Source: Paucibacter sp. KBW04
GTDB lineage: Bacteria > Pseudomonadota > Gammaproteobacteria > Burkholderiales > Burkholderiaceae_C
Assembly: GCF_003852425.1 (NCBI RefSeq)
Contig: NZ_QAJN01000018.1
Location: 1 to 47,331, forward strand
Direction of reading: 5' to 3'
DNA: 47,331 bases
Shown piece by piece: positions 30,706-34,278 of the stretch (position 1 is the first letter of the stretch; each line of letters begins with the position of its first letter). The translations under genes and the position numbers were made by a program. The notes below the pieces were generated by a model. It did not search any database and had not been told where the DNA came from. It saw only the letters and a list, made by a program, of their open reading frames with translations.

Positions 30706-31053
30706 ACAGCCGCCTTCGATGCTGAGGTCACCGCTGGGTTGGAGGCTAGCAATCTGGGCTACTCGGTCTTCAGGCGCTTCTGTGGCATGGCCTACGCCAG
30801 CGAAACTGCATGCGCGGCGAGCGAGCATTTGACGGCTTGCGGCGTCCACCGCCTGGTCGCCACCGTGGCCCTGGGCAACTAGGCCTCGGGCCGCGTGTTG
30901 CAAAACGATAGCTTCCAATTCACACGCATCCTGCCGGGCAACGATGTGATTCGGGGTGAGGCAATGGATGATGAGGAGTGGGTGAGGGAGGAGTGCGGAG
31001 CGGGCGCAGCGGCGCAAGTGCCGGCAGACGAAGATGGTCATGCCAGCGTTTGA
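30706..31053 (+). pseudogene. Broken GNAT N-acetyltransferase gene
   Basis: In one forward frame the sequence reads GYSVFRRFCGMAYASETACA, CGVHRLVATVALGN, a TAG stop at 30880-30882, then ASGRVLQNDSFQFTRILPGN and DDEEWVREE, ending at 31053. This is the C-terminal two thirds of a RimJ/RimL-like GNAT acetyltransferase: the Gxx(G)xA acetyl-CoA loop, the H-R-L-V strand, and the N-x-A-S-x-R-x-L helix. The stop falls exactly where an Asn-Ala pair is expected. The N-terminal part is missing or frameshifted, with another stop at 30703. It is clearly non-functional unless the stop is read through. Confidence 0.85.
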
Positions 31054-31066
31054 GTTGAAAGATCAG

Positions 31067-31097
31067 CCTATTCGACTCAGATTTTGAGTCGAATAGG
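31067..31097. repeat. Perfect 13-bp inverted repeat
   Basis: CCATT-free arms CCTATTCGACTCA and its exact complement are separated by GATTT. It lies 14 bases after the acetyltransferase remnant and about 300 bases beyond the end of the ABC-3C operon. No T-run follows on either strand, so a simple terminator is unlikely. A mobile-element end, a recombination site or a mRNA 3' stabiliser are possible. Confidence 0.8.
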
Positions 31098-31401
31098 GGG
31101 TAAATCTGCGCTCAAGGCTTTGGGGAGCGATATCGGGTCAATCTATTTCACGATGCCTAGCTTCCCTTTGGTTCAGCAGAAACACTTGGCATGAATCAAG
31201 GCGACTGGATGATGTCCCGCCAGTTGGTGTGAGCTCTTGAGCGAGGCGGCCCGATGAGGGTGGCCATCGTGAGTTCGGATAAGGTTGAGGTGCGACCCAC
31301 CAACCTGGATCCAAAGGAACGTCTGGATCGATGGGTGTCCCAGTCCGGCTTAGCTACTCAGATGCGGCAGCCAAATTTCGATCGGTATCCCGCTCTTGTT
31401 G
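31098..31401. other. Intergenic stretch without a recognised gene
   Basis: About 300 bases between the inverted repeat and the end of the ABC-3C ATPase gene. The composition is AT-richer than the surrounding chromosome. One short forward frame (31254-31421) is listed separately. I see no clear terminator, RNA gene or insertion-sequence end. Confidence 0.6.
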
Positions 31402-31421
31402 TCAAACTGCATCGGACCTAG
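31254..31421 (+). CDS. Short hypothetical ORF, possibly a gene fragment
   Basis: A 55-codon frame beginning MRVAIVSSDKVEVRPTN and ending VVKLHRT, running into the 3' end of the convergent ABC-3C ATPase gene by 20 bases. The residue mix (VEVRPTNLDPKERLDRWV) looks protein-like, so it may be a small gene or the remains of one. No Shine-Dalgarno or relatives are recognised. It could equally be chance. Confidence 0.25.
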   Translation: MRVAIVSSDKVEVRPTNLDPKERLDRWVSQSGLATQMRQPNFDRYPALVVKLHRT

Positions 31422-33042
31422 ACGCCGGTGGACGGCTCGGCCGCCAGTCCTTGACATAGAGTACAGCACGGTCGCTGAGCTGTATGACACTCTGTTCTTG
31501 CAACGTTTGAGCAGCTACTGGCCCATATTTCTGGATCTCGTCAAGCGCGATAAATGACTGCTTCTGGATCTTTGCGTACAGCCCGACGAGATGTGCGACG
31601 GAGTCGTTCGAAATATTCTTGAAGAGCACGGAATCGTGCGCAATAGCTGGAAGGCTGGTAGCCCGAAAGACCGCCATGTCGAAAAGTACGAGACCGAAGT
31701 ACGCCGTCCCTGTTCCGGTGTCCTCGAAGACCTCGAAGTTGTAGGTGGTGTCGGCGAGCGACAGGCGCGGGCTCTTGCGGTGCTCGCCGACTGCTTCGCT
31801 GACGATCTTGCGCATCCCTTCATTCACACTGGTCTCAATTTCATTGAGGATGCGTTGCTTCACTTTCGCGAGCGCTTCCCTCGCCTTGTTCAGCGCATCG
31901 ATATGTGCTTGCTCATGCTCGTAGCCATCTCTGTTGTTCCGTGCAGCCTGAAGTGACAAAGCGACCTTGTAGACGTGGTCAACCAGCGACTCAGGTTGTT
32001 CGACTGATCCCAATGCCGCAGCCATCTCCGCGTCGATGCCTGCAATGCCTAAGTCGATCAGGCTCAATTCCTCTGCCAATTGCTCTTTGGACAGTTTCAG
32101 CTGTTCCTTGAGGATGCGGGCGACGCCGTCATGAAACGCTTCAACTTCAACGAGTCTTTCGGTGTTGATCTCCGGGAAGAATCTCTGGAGGTCCAGGAAA
32201 TTTCCACCGTGGAGGGCTCGCTTTCCACCGAGGTTGCGGTCGACCCGCTGTAGGCGCCCGGCCACGATCATGCGGCGCTGAAGCAGATCATCTTTACGCT
32301 CTTTGAGTTCTAGGACTTCTTTATTAATTACCGCACTCAGACTTGTCGCGTAACTCGCCAAGTTCTGACGCACTTCTTCAAGATCGCGCTCAAGACCCGC
32401 GATCTGTACCTTCGCATTTGTGTACCCCGTCTTGGTGACCTTCGGAATAAGCTGCTTGCTTGCCGCGGCCCGAATAACCTTCAGCTCCGTATCGGCAGTT
32501 CGCGCTGCTTGGTCGCGCTCACGAATCGCTTCGAACTTGCCATAAGTTTTGACCAAGTTATCGATGCAATCCTTGTCCTTCTGTTTCGGGAACACATGCA
32601 GCGGCTCGTCGGGGATTAGGTTGGTCTTGCCCCACACGCGCAAATGAAGGCCGACAGCAGCGCGGAACGACTGACCGGGTTCAGCGAGGCCGTACGCGCT
32701 TTTCAAGAACGCGTTGAATTCATCCAGTTGTATTGCCGACTGCACTTTGTAGTCCGCATCGCAGACGTACAGGGTTTCTGGCGTGATCGTTTCGCGCCTG
32801 AAGCGGTGCAGTTCACCAGAAAATTCGAATGCAAAGTCATAGTGGTGGTGTCCCAGCTCAGCCACGATGTCCTTATTCCAATCCAGAAGCGTCGAGCCGC
32901 CGAACACGAAGTCCACCAGCATCAAAAGCGTGGATTTGCCAATGGAGTTGGTCGCGTTTTCGTCGCCCAGTACGACATTCAAGCCTGGATGAAACCTTAC
33001 AACGCGGTTGCAAAATTTCTCGCAGCGGATTTCACGCAGCAT
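31402..33042 (-). CDS. DUF2326-type P-loop ATPase of an ABC-3C system
   Basis: A 546-residue ATPase. The N-terminus reads as an SMC/RecN-like ATP-binding start with an extended Walker A, GDENATNSIGKST (Lys36), then a D-loop-like LLMLVDFVFGG. A long central coiled coil (about 180-400: ERDLEEVRQN, ELKERKDDLLQRR and repeats) leads to a C-terminal half with AHDSVLFKNISNDSVAHLV and the Walker B-like FIALDEIQKYG. This layout is that of DUF2326 proteins, the ABC ATPase component of predicted ABC-three-component systems. The ATG at 33042 lies within the middle-component gene and overlaps it by 11 bases; an in-frame GTG at 33063 is less likely. Confidence 0.88.
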   Translation of the reverse strand: MLREIRCEKFCNRVVRFHPGLNVVLGDENATNSIGKSTLLMLVDFVFGGSTLLDWNKDIVAELGHHHYDFAFEFSGELHRFRRETITPETLYVCDADYKVQSAIQLDEFNAFLKSAYGLAEPGQSFRAAVGLHLRVWGKTNLIPDEPLHVFPKQKDKDCIDNLVKTYGKFEAIRERDQAARTADTELKVIRAAASKQLIPKVTKTGYTNAKVQIAGLERDLEEVRQNLASYATSLSAVINKEVLELKERKDDLLQRRMIVAGRLQRVDRNLGGKRALHGGNFLDLQRFFPEINTERLVEVEAFHDGVARILKEQLKLSKEQLAEELSLIDLGIAGIDAEMAAALGSVEQPESLVDHVYKVALSLQAARNNRDGYEHEQAHIDALNKAREALAKVKQRILNEIETSVNEGMRKIVSEAVGEHRKSPRLSLADTTYNFEVFEDTGTGTAYFGLVLFDMAVFRATSLPAIAHDSVLFKNISNDSVAHLVGLYAKIQKQSFIALDEIQKYGPVAAQTLQEQSVIQLSDRAVLYVKDWRPSRPPASRSDAV

Positions 33043-33256
33043 ATACAACCTTCTCGGTACCAAAGTCGACGGTCAAACGGTCAAGCAGAAAAAGAACATC
33101 CAAAGCCAGCAAGAACTGGTCGATGCTCTCGAACTTGTCGCCCACCTGCTGGAACAGATCCGCCAGCCGGATCGATTCGGGCCCCACTTTCAGCACATGG
33201 GTCAGGTTCCCCAAGACGGAGGCGGATAGTGGTACAGCCTTGTTAGGGGTGATCAC
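33032..33256 (-). CDS. ABC-3C system middle component (MC6-like)
   Basis: A 74-residue protein with the pattern of ABC-3C middle component 6: an N-terminal ITPNKAVPLSASVLGNLTHV, central LADLFQQVGDKFESIDQFLLALDVLFLLDRL, and a short basic/acidic end. Such middle components are small winged-helix-like proteins thought to bridge ATPase and effector. The start is a GTG that overlaps the upstream nuclease stop by 4 bases (GTGA), and its end overlaps the ATPase start by 11, so all three are translationally coupled in equal order. Confidence 0.82.
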   Translation of the reverse strand: MITPNKAVPLSASVLGNLTHVLKVGPESIRLADLFQQVGDKFESIDQFLLALDVLFLLDRLTVDFGTEKVVYAA

Positions 33257-34017
33257 TCGAACACCTCGCAGTTCTGGATGAAGAAAGATGCTACGGCCTC
33301 AGCCGACTCAAGGGTTTGGGCCTTTGCCCGGACGCGAATCCAGGCGACCAGATTGGCGAACACCTGTGCCTGAGGCAGACTTTGACGCTTCTGCATCACA
33401 TAAAACGATTTCACCTGGACAAAGATCTGCTCGGAGCACCCAGGGTCGCTACGCTCAAGCTCCAAGAAGGCGGCCTGCACATGCCGGAAGTAGTCTTCGA
33501 CAGCATTACGAACCTTGCGCTTGGTGGGCGGCGGCATAGTCGCATCCAGTTTGTCATTGACTGCCTTTGGGGTGAATGACAACTCTGCACTCTCCGCACC
33601 CTCTACGGCAGCACTGTGCAAATGAGCAACGACCGCTGCAATCTGCTGCTCAAGGGGGTACTGCGAAGCCAGAGAACGTTGCCGCTCTTGCTGCAAAGCA
33701 TCGGACTTGATCTGATAAAGGTCGAGGTACTCTTGTGCGGTCCGGGGCTTGTCAAACTTCCCATGGCAGGCGTTGCAAAGGGGAATGATGTTGTCCGGGT
33801 CGTTTACATCAGCACAGAGCATTTGCAGGTTAGCTAACTCTATGAGTTCCTCCGGACGCGGGTTCAGAGGGTAGATGTGGGCCATCTCGTAGCCCTTGTA
33901 CTGCCGTTTCAGCTTTCGATAGAACAGTGGGTCGTCACATAGCGGGCAGCGGCTGCTGACCTGCGCAAGCAGAGCAGCGATCTCCGCGTCGTTGTATCCA
34001 CGTCTTGCGTTCGTCAC
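33253..34017 (-). CDS. HNH nuclease with C-terminal ABC-3C domain (effector)
   Basis: A 254-residue protein. The N-terminal third is an HNH endonuclease zinc finger: knuckles CPLC (24-27) and CNAC (81-84), AHIYPLNP (His47), DNIIPLC (Asn76) and the third histidine His85. After a linker with charged helices, the last ~100 residues (KRKVRNAVEDYFRHVQAAFLE ... ASFFIQNCEVFE; middle omitted) match the helical C-terminal domain that marks ABC-3C effectors. The GTG start at 34017 is preceded by a strong AAGGAGG at 6-7 bases. It is first in the operon with the middle component and ATPase. Expected role: nucleic-acid cleavage when triggered, probably phage or plasmid defence (family inference). Confidence 0.88.
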   Translation of the reverse strand: MTNARRGYNDAEIAALLAQVSSRCPLCDDPLFYRKLKRQYKGYEMAHIYPLNPRPEELIELANLQMLCADVNDPDNIIPLCNACHGKFDKPRTAQEYLDLYQIKSDALQQERQRSLASQYPLEQQIAAVVAHLHSAAVEGAESAELSFTPKAVNDKLDATMPPPTKRKVRNAVEDYFRHVQAAFLELERSDPGCSEQIFVQVKSFYVMQKRQSLPQAQVFANLVAWIRVRAKAQTLESAEAVASFFIQNCEVFE

Positions 34018-34074
34018 TAGGTCCCTCCTTCCGTCGGCGCTTGGCGCACAACGTTGACCGTTATTGATTTAATT

Positions 34075-34090
34075 TGGTCGCTCCCGACCA
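34075..34090. promoter_or_regulatory. Possible operator in the ABC-3C/thiL gap
   Basis: TGGTCG and CGACCA are exact complements separated by CTCC, in the AT-rich 267-base gap between the divergent HNH gene and thiL. AT-rich sequence suited to a -10 box (AATTAAAT on the minus strand) lies beside it, 58 bases from the HNH start. This is a candidate regulator site for the ABC-3C operon; the rest of the gap shows nothing clear apart from the thiL -10 box. Confidence 0.35.
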
Positions 34091-34272
34091 CTGCTTGTGA
34101 CGGCGATTTTGGCTGATACAAACGTAGTCCGACAGAATTCTCGTCAGGTTGCTGGATCAATGGCCAAACTGGTGGGATCGGTCTAATTCGCAACCAACAG
34201 AATGACCGGTACTCGCGGCGACGGGTAGTCGGGCGCAAGCGCTGAACGACTGTCCCCCACCTCCCTCCCTGA

Positions 34273-34278
34273 CACAAT
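34273..34278 (+). promoter_or_regulatory. Candidate -10 box of a leaderless thiL promoter
   Basis: CACAAT lies 6 bases before the thiL ATG at 34285, the same spacing as at three other genes in this window. The hexamer matches TATAAT at four positions. No clear -35 or Shine-Dalgarno is seen. Confidence 0.35.

Follow-up and report, generated by a model that had tools for sequence, protein, structure and literature searches.

An ABC-three-component operon with an HNH effector in Paucibacter sp. KBW04 and its likeness to Lamassu

ABC-three-component (ABC-3C) systems were reportedly defined by Krishnan et al. in 2020. In a 2023 review, an HNH nuclease domain is listed among the effectors of Lamassu and ABC-3C systems, and C-terminal domains are described as possible docking stations (PMC10586767). 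Lamassu, or DdmABC, is composed of an effector, a small middle protein and an SMC/Rad50-like ATPase (LmuA-LmuC-LmuB); according to two further papers, it is believed to recognise DNA ends or hairpins (PMC12904381), and its effector, once released, assembles into a tetramer, which activates the nuclease (PMC12409362). We analysed a 47,331-nucleotide (nt) stretch of Paucibacter sp. KBW04 (contig NZ_QAJN01000018.1), hereafter the window, in which all coordinates are positions, and found three overlapping open frames on its minus strand at 31402-34017, in the order HNH effector, middle component, ATPase. This composition is that of Lamassu. We give a probability of about 0.65 to the reading that the operon, complete and under constraint, is an ABC-3C module of CTD11-MC7-DUF2326 type, whose HNH effector would be a DNA endonuclease acting in a Lamassu-like mode. 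The idea of an HNH effector, like the class and its component families, is already in print or in databases (PADLOC PDC-M68, RefSeq naming), and no functional test of this type was found in the limited literature collection searched. The HNH version, described in the first-pass annotation as poorly characterised, had thus been catalogued before: a similar architecture is in PADLOC, and the 2023 review has the HNH nuclease domain among the effectors. The three genes are as follows.

33253..34017, minus strand: HNH endonuclease effector, 254 amino acids (aa), identified by Pfam (HNH_2 and CTD11), conservation, structure model and fold
33032..33256, minus strand: middle component MC7 (Pfam), 74 aa, GTG start, in the same place as Lamassu LmuC
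31402..33042, minus strand: DUF2326 SMC/Rad50-like coiled-coil ATPase, 546 aa, ATG at 33042, identified by Pfam (DUF2326), structure model and folds

The effector and middle component genes overlapped by 4 bases (GTGA), and the middle component and ATPase genes by 11 bases, just as the first-pass annotation had described. The GTG start of the effector, at the 34017 end, was preceded by a ribosome binding site, GGAAGGAGG, in the leader. An upstream TTG in the open-reading-frame list would give an ATPase of 553 aa, versus 546 aa from the ATG at 33042.

Pfam calls were judged by the curated cut-offs, which all three proteins exceeded. The effector contained an HNH_2 domain at residues 41-91 (26.6 bits, cut-off 21; 5.3e-6) and CTD11 at residues 116-253 (87.8 bits, cut-off 27.7; 1.3e-24), confirming that it is an HNH nuclease with an ABC-3C-type C-terminal domain. 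The 74-residue middle component matched MC7 (49.3 bits, cut-off 27; 5e-13). MC6, the label first given to it, scored 22.4 bits and remained under its cut-off of 27.2; thus, the ABC-3C family of this protein stood and the label was changed. The ATPase matched DUF2326 (63.9 bits, cut-off 28.7; 1.6e-17) and carried the Walker A sequence GDENATNSIGKST with Lys36, as expected for the predicted coiled-coil P-loop ATPase. These family matches are not due to chance, because the scores exceed the cut-offs and the same gene order occurs in distant genomes. NCBIfam gave a sub-threshold match only, for the nuclease, and covered neither the middle protein nor the ATPase. The middle component matched no solved structure at E <= 1, and no PDC-M68 and no LmuC model of PADLOC.

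Judged by these matches, the operon is an ABC-3C module, close to the PADLOC candidate PDC-M68. The effector matched positions 5-251 of the 253 of PDC-M68A, a match judged by its E value of 2.6e-11. The window ATPase matched just 78 of the 581 positions of PDC-M68B (1.2e-9), which was weaker than its match to the best LmuB model (7.3e-11); the ATPases of two relatives, L083 and L104, matched 1-525 and 1-531 of the 581.

The HNH motif of the effector consists of Cys24, Cys27, His47, Asn76, Cys81, Cys84 and His85, and the alignment showed His47, Asn76 and His85 to be kept in 39/39 short-form effectors (window included). The structure model had a predicted local distance difference test (pLDDT) score of 87.3, and the nearest fold of its HNH domain was Cap5 of the cyclic oligonucleotide-based antiphage signalling system (CBASS), to whose HNH domain a profile search likewise pointed. 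Since model and profile agree on Cap5, the comparison suggests that the substrate is DNA. His47 aligned with Cap5 His56 (entry 9nlg is titled as the His56Ala mutant), making it a better first choice for mutation than the proposed His85, which is indeed the last His of the motif. In place of the SAVED domain of Cap5 (HNH-SAVED), the effector has CTD11, and no SAVED family of Pfam matched at E <= 1; therefore, no cyclic-nucleotide sensing is expected, and membership of CBASS was rejected. The CTD11 region gave no fold match among the matches listed, by a comparison method barely tested for this part.

The Walker A Lys was kept in 45/45 aligned ATPases (window included). The Walker-B-like motif reads HDS (Asp470, Ser471), and the residue after the Asp was never Glu in the aligned ATPases, that of the window among them. 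In the 2023 review, Gln is reported at this place for LmuB, in contrast to Ser here, and a zinc hook is reported for many, not all, Lamassu members (PMC10586767); a CxxC zinc hook was found in 0/45 ATPases, including that of the window. The ATPase model (pLDDT 86.6), of SMC/Rad50-like fold, had YydD and Lamassu LmuB as its nearest folds, with LmuB folds ranking 2nd and 5th by Z (Lamassu entries 9uxh, 9hqu, 9hqx, 9nyg). The ATPase profile found nothing below 0.01 among PDB sequences, so that this placement is by fold comparison only. The partner of YydD in Bacillus subtilis YydD-YydB (PDB 9a6c) is not of the CTD11 effector type, because CTD11 occurred in 0/14 control genomes; the paper 10.15252/msb.202311544 contains no mention of YydD, YydB or YydC. 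Septu and retron I-A (PtuA-PtuB) were rejected, with E values of only 0.034 for PtuA and 0.03 for PtuB.

The relatives were collected by selective scans, so locus counts are lower bounds and the frequency of either effector form in phages cannot be read from them. In the family, an ATPase homologue was found in 3/399 genomes and, in the class, CTD11 in 3/369, the window's own genome being counted in both; the two other ATPases of the family were just 32-33% identical to that of the window. The four other ATPase- or CTD11-positive genomes of the family or class all had the HNH-middle component-ATPase set. Across the phylum, the ATPase profile hit 12/398 genomes, but the 11 besides the window's were partial (18-30 bits) and were not counted as members. 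Scanning genome contigs with six peptide patterns yielded at least 55 loci, which belong to several phyla. In 53 of them a frame homologous to the window ATPase followed downstream; L036 and L051 end before the ATPase. The middle component was adjacent by BLAST in 41/55 and represented by candidate frames in 10 more; BLAST and the candidate-frame check found none in 4/55. Of the 41, 14 showed the 4-base and 11 the 11-base overlap, both lower bounds with the first possible start taken. Five loci (L018, L019, L038, L042 and L052) had an ATPase frame that is short or split although no contig edge is near, and are apparently broken copies.

A scan of viral contigs with patterns of the ATPase Walker A region gave at least 83 relatives, of which 80 were kept. 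Upstream genes were readable in 77/80 (L147 was unparsed, and the ATPase is the first gene of L165 and L201), and 77/77 readable loci had an effector and a middle component. Homologues were also present on three plasmid records and one phage record, and RefSeq labels a plasmid homologue 'ABC-three component system protein'. On the 43-kb Shewanella putrefaciens plasmid (L104), the operon has a CHAT-domain gene on one side and repressor/Cro-type regulators on the other, with replication protein P and integrases in the vicinity, and the element looks like a phage-plasmid. Near the genome end of the sequenced Ruminococcus phage NatCom_28274 (L105:4395-7403), a DUF2326 ATPase is encoded together with a small frame and a CTD11 effector of the long form. 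Neighbours of ten viral loci with a live HNH (93/99 frames scanned) included terminases, portals, integrases and repressors. No E. coli homologue was found, the operon of L030 giving no DNA match there.

The neighbours of some relatives were defence genes. In a PADLOC scan of 146 of 210 selected neighbours (loci L002-L037 without 6 near-duplicates; up to three frames per side, each of 130-900 aa), 194 models were matched at 1e-10, with <=2 proteins per model among the 25 listed; as a control, the 33 other window genes matched 1 model.

The guanine plus cytosine (GC) content of the operon was 54.9%, versus 65-68% on both sides, and third-position GC was 65-69% in its genes, versus 80-88% in eight other window genes. 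The operon is flanked by a beta-lactamase-family gene and by three genes with AIRS, PgpA and CinA domains; the AIRS-domain gene is presumably thiL, the label that we gave it. Three further features lie at the edges.

34018..34254, minus strand: leader between the operon and the thiL-labelled AIRS-family gene, not common to congeners
31207..31319, plus strand: truncated end of a Mutator/IS256-type insertion sequence, 93% identical over 113 bp to G000:C18:5203-5315
31067..31097, minus strand: 13-pair stem-loop downstream of the operon, a possible terminator (weak)

The thiL region was present in 17/17 congeners, and in 16/17 the match started at query base 238-259 (window 34255-34276), just beyond the operon leader. 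The operon was absent at this site in 16/17; in the 17th (G014) the contig begins inside thiL. In the nearest congener, G009, the slot before thiL holds a different 379-aa frame (L085:7968-9107) that matches nothing in Pfam (E <= 0.001); upstream of thiL, the genes vary across the seven congeners compared. Window 30716-30988 was 79% identical to a stretch of G009; we read its residues as a decayed acetyltransferase gene. The insertion-sequence remnant, with which a window open reading frame at 31254-31421 was noted, abuts the downstream edge of the module. Another contig, G000:C18, holds a longer copy with a 422-aa Transposase_mut frame (Pfam 9.1e-128), the matched stretch being its gene start. 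Terminator-like sites in the region were not above chance (1, versus a shuffle mean of 3.6). There was no promoter-like site on the operon strand, the single consensus match being on the opposite strand (shuffle mean 1.3), and no tRNA or Rfam element in the window at the gathering thresholds. Direct repeats bounding an island were rejected, as only short two-copy matches were seen.

By its composition and its distribution, the operon is horizontally acquired and accessory; the check for conservation as a core gene set thus did not refute the first-pass reading. DNA similarity to the three nearest homologous loci covered 31427-34118, 31437-34046 and 31436-34017; these spans are little more than the operon, so that the transfer unit is essentially the three genes. 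The nearest nucleases (80-89% identical) were from a Rhodocyclaceae metagenome-assembled genome (MAG), a Rubrivivax MAG and Achromobacter. The ratio of nonsynonymous to synonymous substitution rates (dN/dS) was 0.06-0.11 in 8/9 comparisons, with synonymous sites near saturation, and saturated in the ninth; by this measure, all three genes are under purifying selection.

The effector ends in the tail FFIQNCEVF (residues 245-253). F245-V252 was invariant in 44/44 aligned effectors, a count that is biased and partly a search product, because the six peptide patterns that collected them included FFIQNCEV. Among effectors reached through ATPase patterns alone (viral contigs), a loose tail pattern was found within the last 60 residues in 76/77, near-identical rows included; the exception, L176, reads FFVQNCSV. 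The pattern [FY]F[IV]Q.CEV is common to effectors with different domains ahead of the tail.

CTD11 was detected in 77/77 effectors of the viral set (E <= 0.01) and HNH_2 in 10/77. Sorting of effectors by regular expression left 71/126 unplaced and was replaced by aligned columns. The 67 viral effectors without an HNH_2 match comprised 66 of >285 aa and one of 144 aa (L170). In the 66 long effectors, each zinc cysteine position was kept in 59-62, and the 3-4 gapped rows per position include 288-308-aa effectors without an HNH stretch; His47 was found in 6 and His85 in 5, never both. Their N-terminal parts formed two BLAST groups (39 and 26) and one single. Three long effectors were compared with PADLOC: L157 and L105 matched an LmuA model N-terminally, and L137 matched none. 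The sister form, mostly 370-480 aa, was seen in part of L133-L206 (viral contigs) and in L043-L055. The HNH stretch was missing from the 288-308-aa CTD11 effectors L052:7494-8360, L199:4934-5800, L140, L141 and L150; ahead of CTD11, the one of L052 matched nothing else in Pfam or PADLOC above chance. An ATPase tree built by a quick method (rows <450 aa or >90% identical to a kept row left out) had 90 rows: 49 long, 40 HNH and 1 other. A branch with 97% support in the Shimodaira-Hasegawa-like approximate likelihood ratio test (SH-aLRT) separated 38/40 live-HNH systems, including the window, from 49/49 long forms and the two remaining live-HNH rows; the effector form changed 3 times on the tree, versus 30.6 in shuffles. 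The sister clade has kept the zinc cysteines of the HNH, whereas its catalytic histidines were lost and a domain was added at the N-terminus.

The composition, motif residues, gene order, accessory and mobile distribution, purifying selection and nearest folds were observed. As to how the parts would work together, a Lamassu-like mode is the most likely by analogy, because of the composition, the sensor fold and the nuclease type. The DUF2326 ATPase would be a Rad50/SMC-like clamp on DNA, and MC7 and CTD11 with the shared tail would dock the HNH nuclease and keep it inactive. When the ATP-bound ATPase recognises aberrant DNA (hairpins, replication intermediates or the ends of phages or plasmids), it would free or rearrange the nuclease, which would oligomerise, as Cap5 and LmuA do, and then cut DNA, so that the invader is removed or the cell is killed (abortive infection).

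Several points weigh against this reading. The analogy with Lamassu rests on fold and layout: the LmuB model matched the window ATPase at 7.3e-11 in two stretches (best 11-166), and no LmuA or LmuC model of PADLOC matched the effector or the middle protein at E <= 1. ATP turnover is doubtful because no Glu follows the Walker-B-like Asp. The tail, kept behind differing N-terminal domains, is only a candidate docking element. The excess of PADLOC matches among the neighbours is an indication only, the matches being counted by model and not by distinct neighbour, the sets differing in size and taxon and the control being small and unmatched.

Alternatively, the nuclease may act directly and locally on invading DNA, restriction-like and without cell death, with the ATPase loading it as Wadjet does with JetD. 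We regard this as unlikely, as there is no methyltransferase among the three proteins and the effector-middle component-ATPase layout is that of Lamassu, for which effector release and tetramerisation are reported (PMC12409362). Still less probable is an addiction or stability module, a toxin with a two-part restraint selected for persistence of the carrier element and not for cell defence: occurrence on viral contigs, on plasmids and in one sequenced phage would fit it, but the window copy is chromosomal and alone, prophage carriage equally fits superinfection exclusion, and defence genes adjoin some relatives. A complex for housekeeping DNA repair, like Mre11-Rad50, is highly improbable, given an ATPase in so few genomes of the family, the low GC and the absence from this site in 16/17 congeners (the 17th being cut by its contig), and a core repair operon is likewise disfavoured by the patchy distribution.

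A more specific scheme is tentatively proposed, though as a whole it is rather doubtful. One tail latch, [FY]F[IV]Q.CE[VIL], might serve all CTD11 effectors on a hook-less clamp gated by ATP binding; without a Walker B Glu, activation might depend on ATP binding and not on hydrolysis. The payload might have been swapped once or a few times, one clade having a live HNH, as in the window, and the other a dead HNH remnant that is zinc-only and carries an N-terminal domain, partly of the LmuA kind.

The operon of Paucibacter sp. KBW04 is a compact and intact representative of a catalogued SMC-like conflict branch, with an HNH effector for which the mutants are obvious. The shared effector tail, the absent Walker B Glu and the split between live and dead HNH lead to three testable predictions on how a clamp may hold and release its effector.
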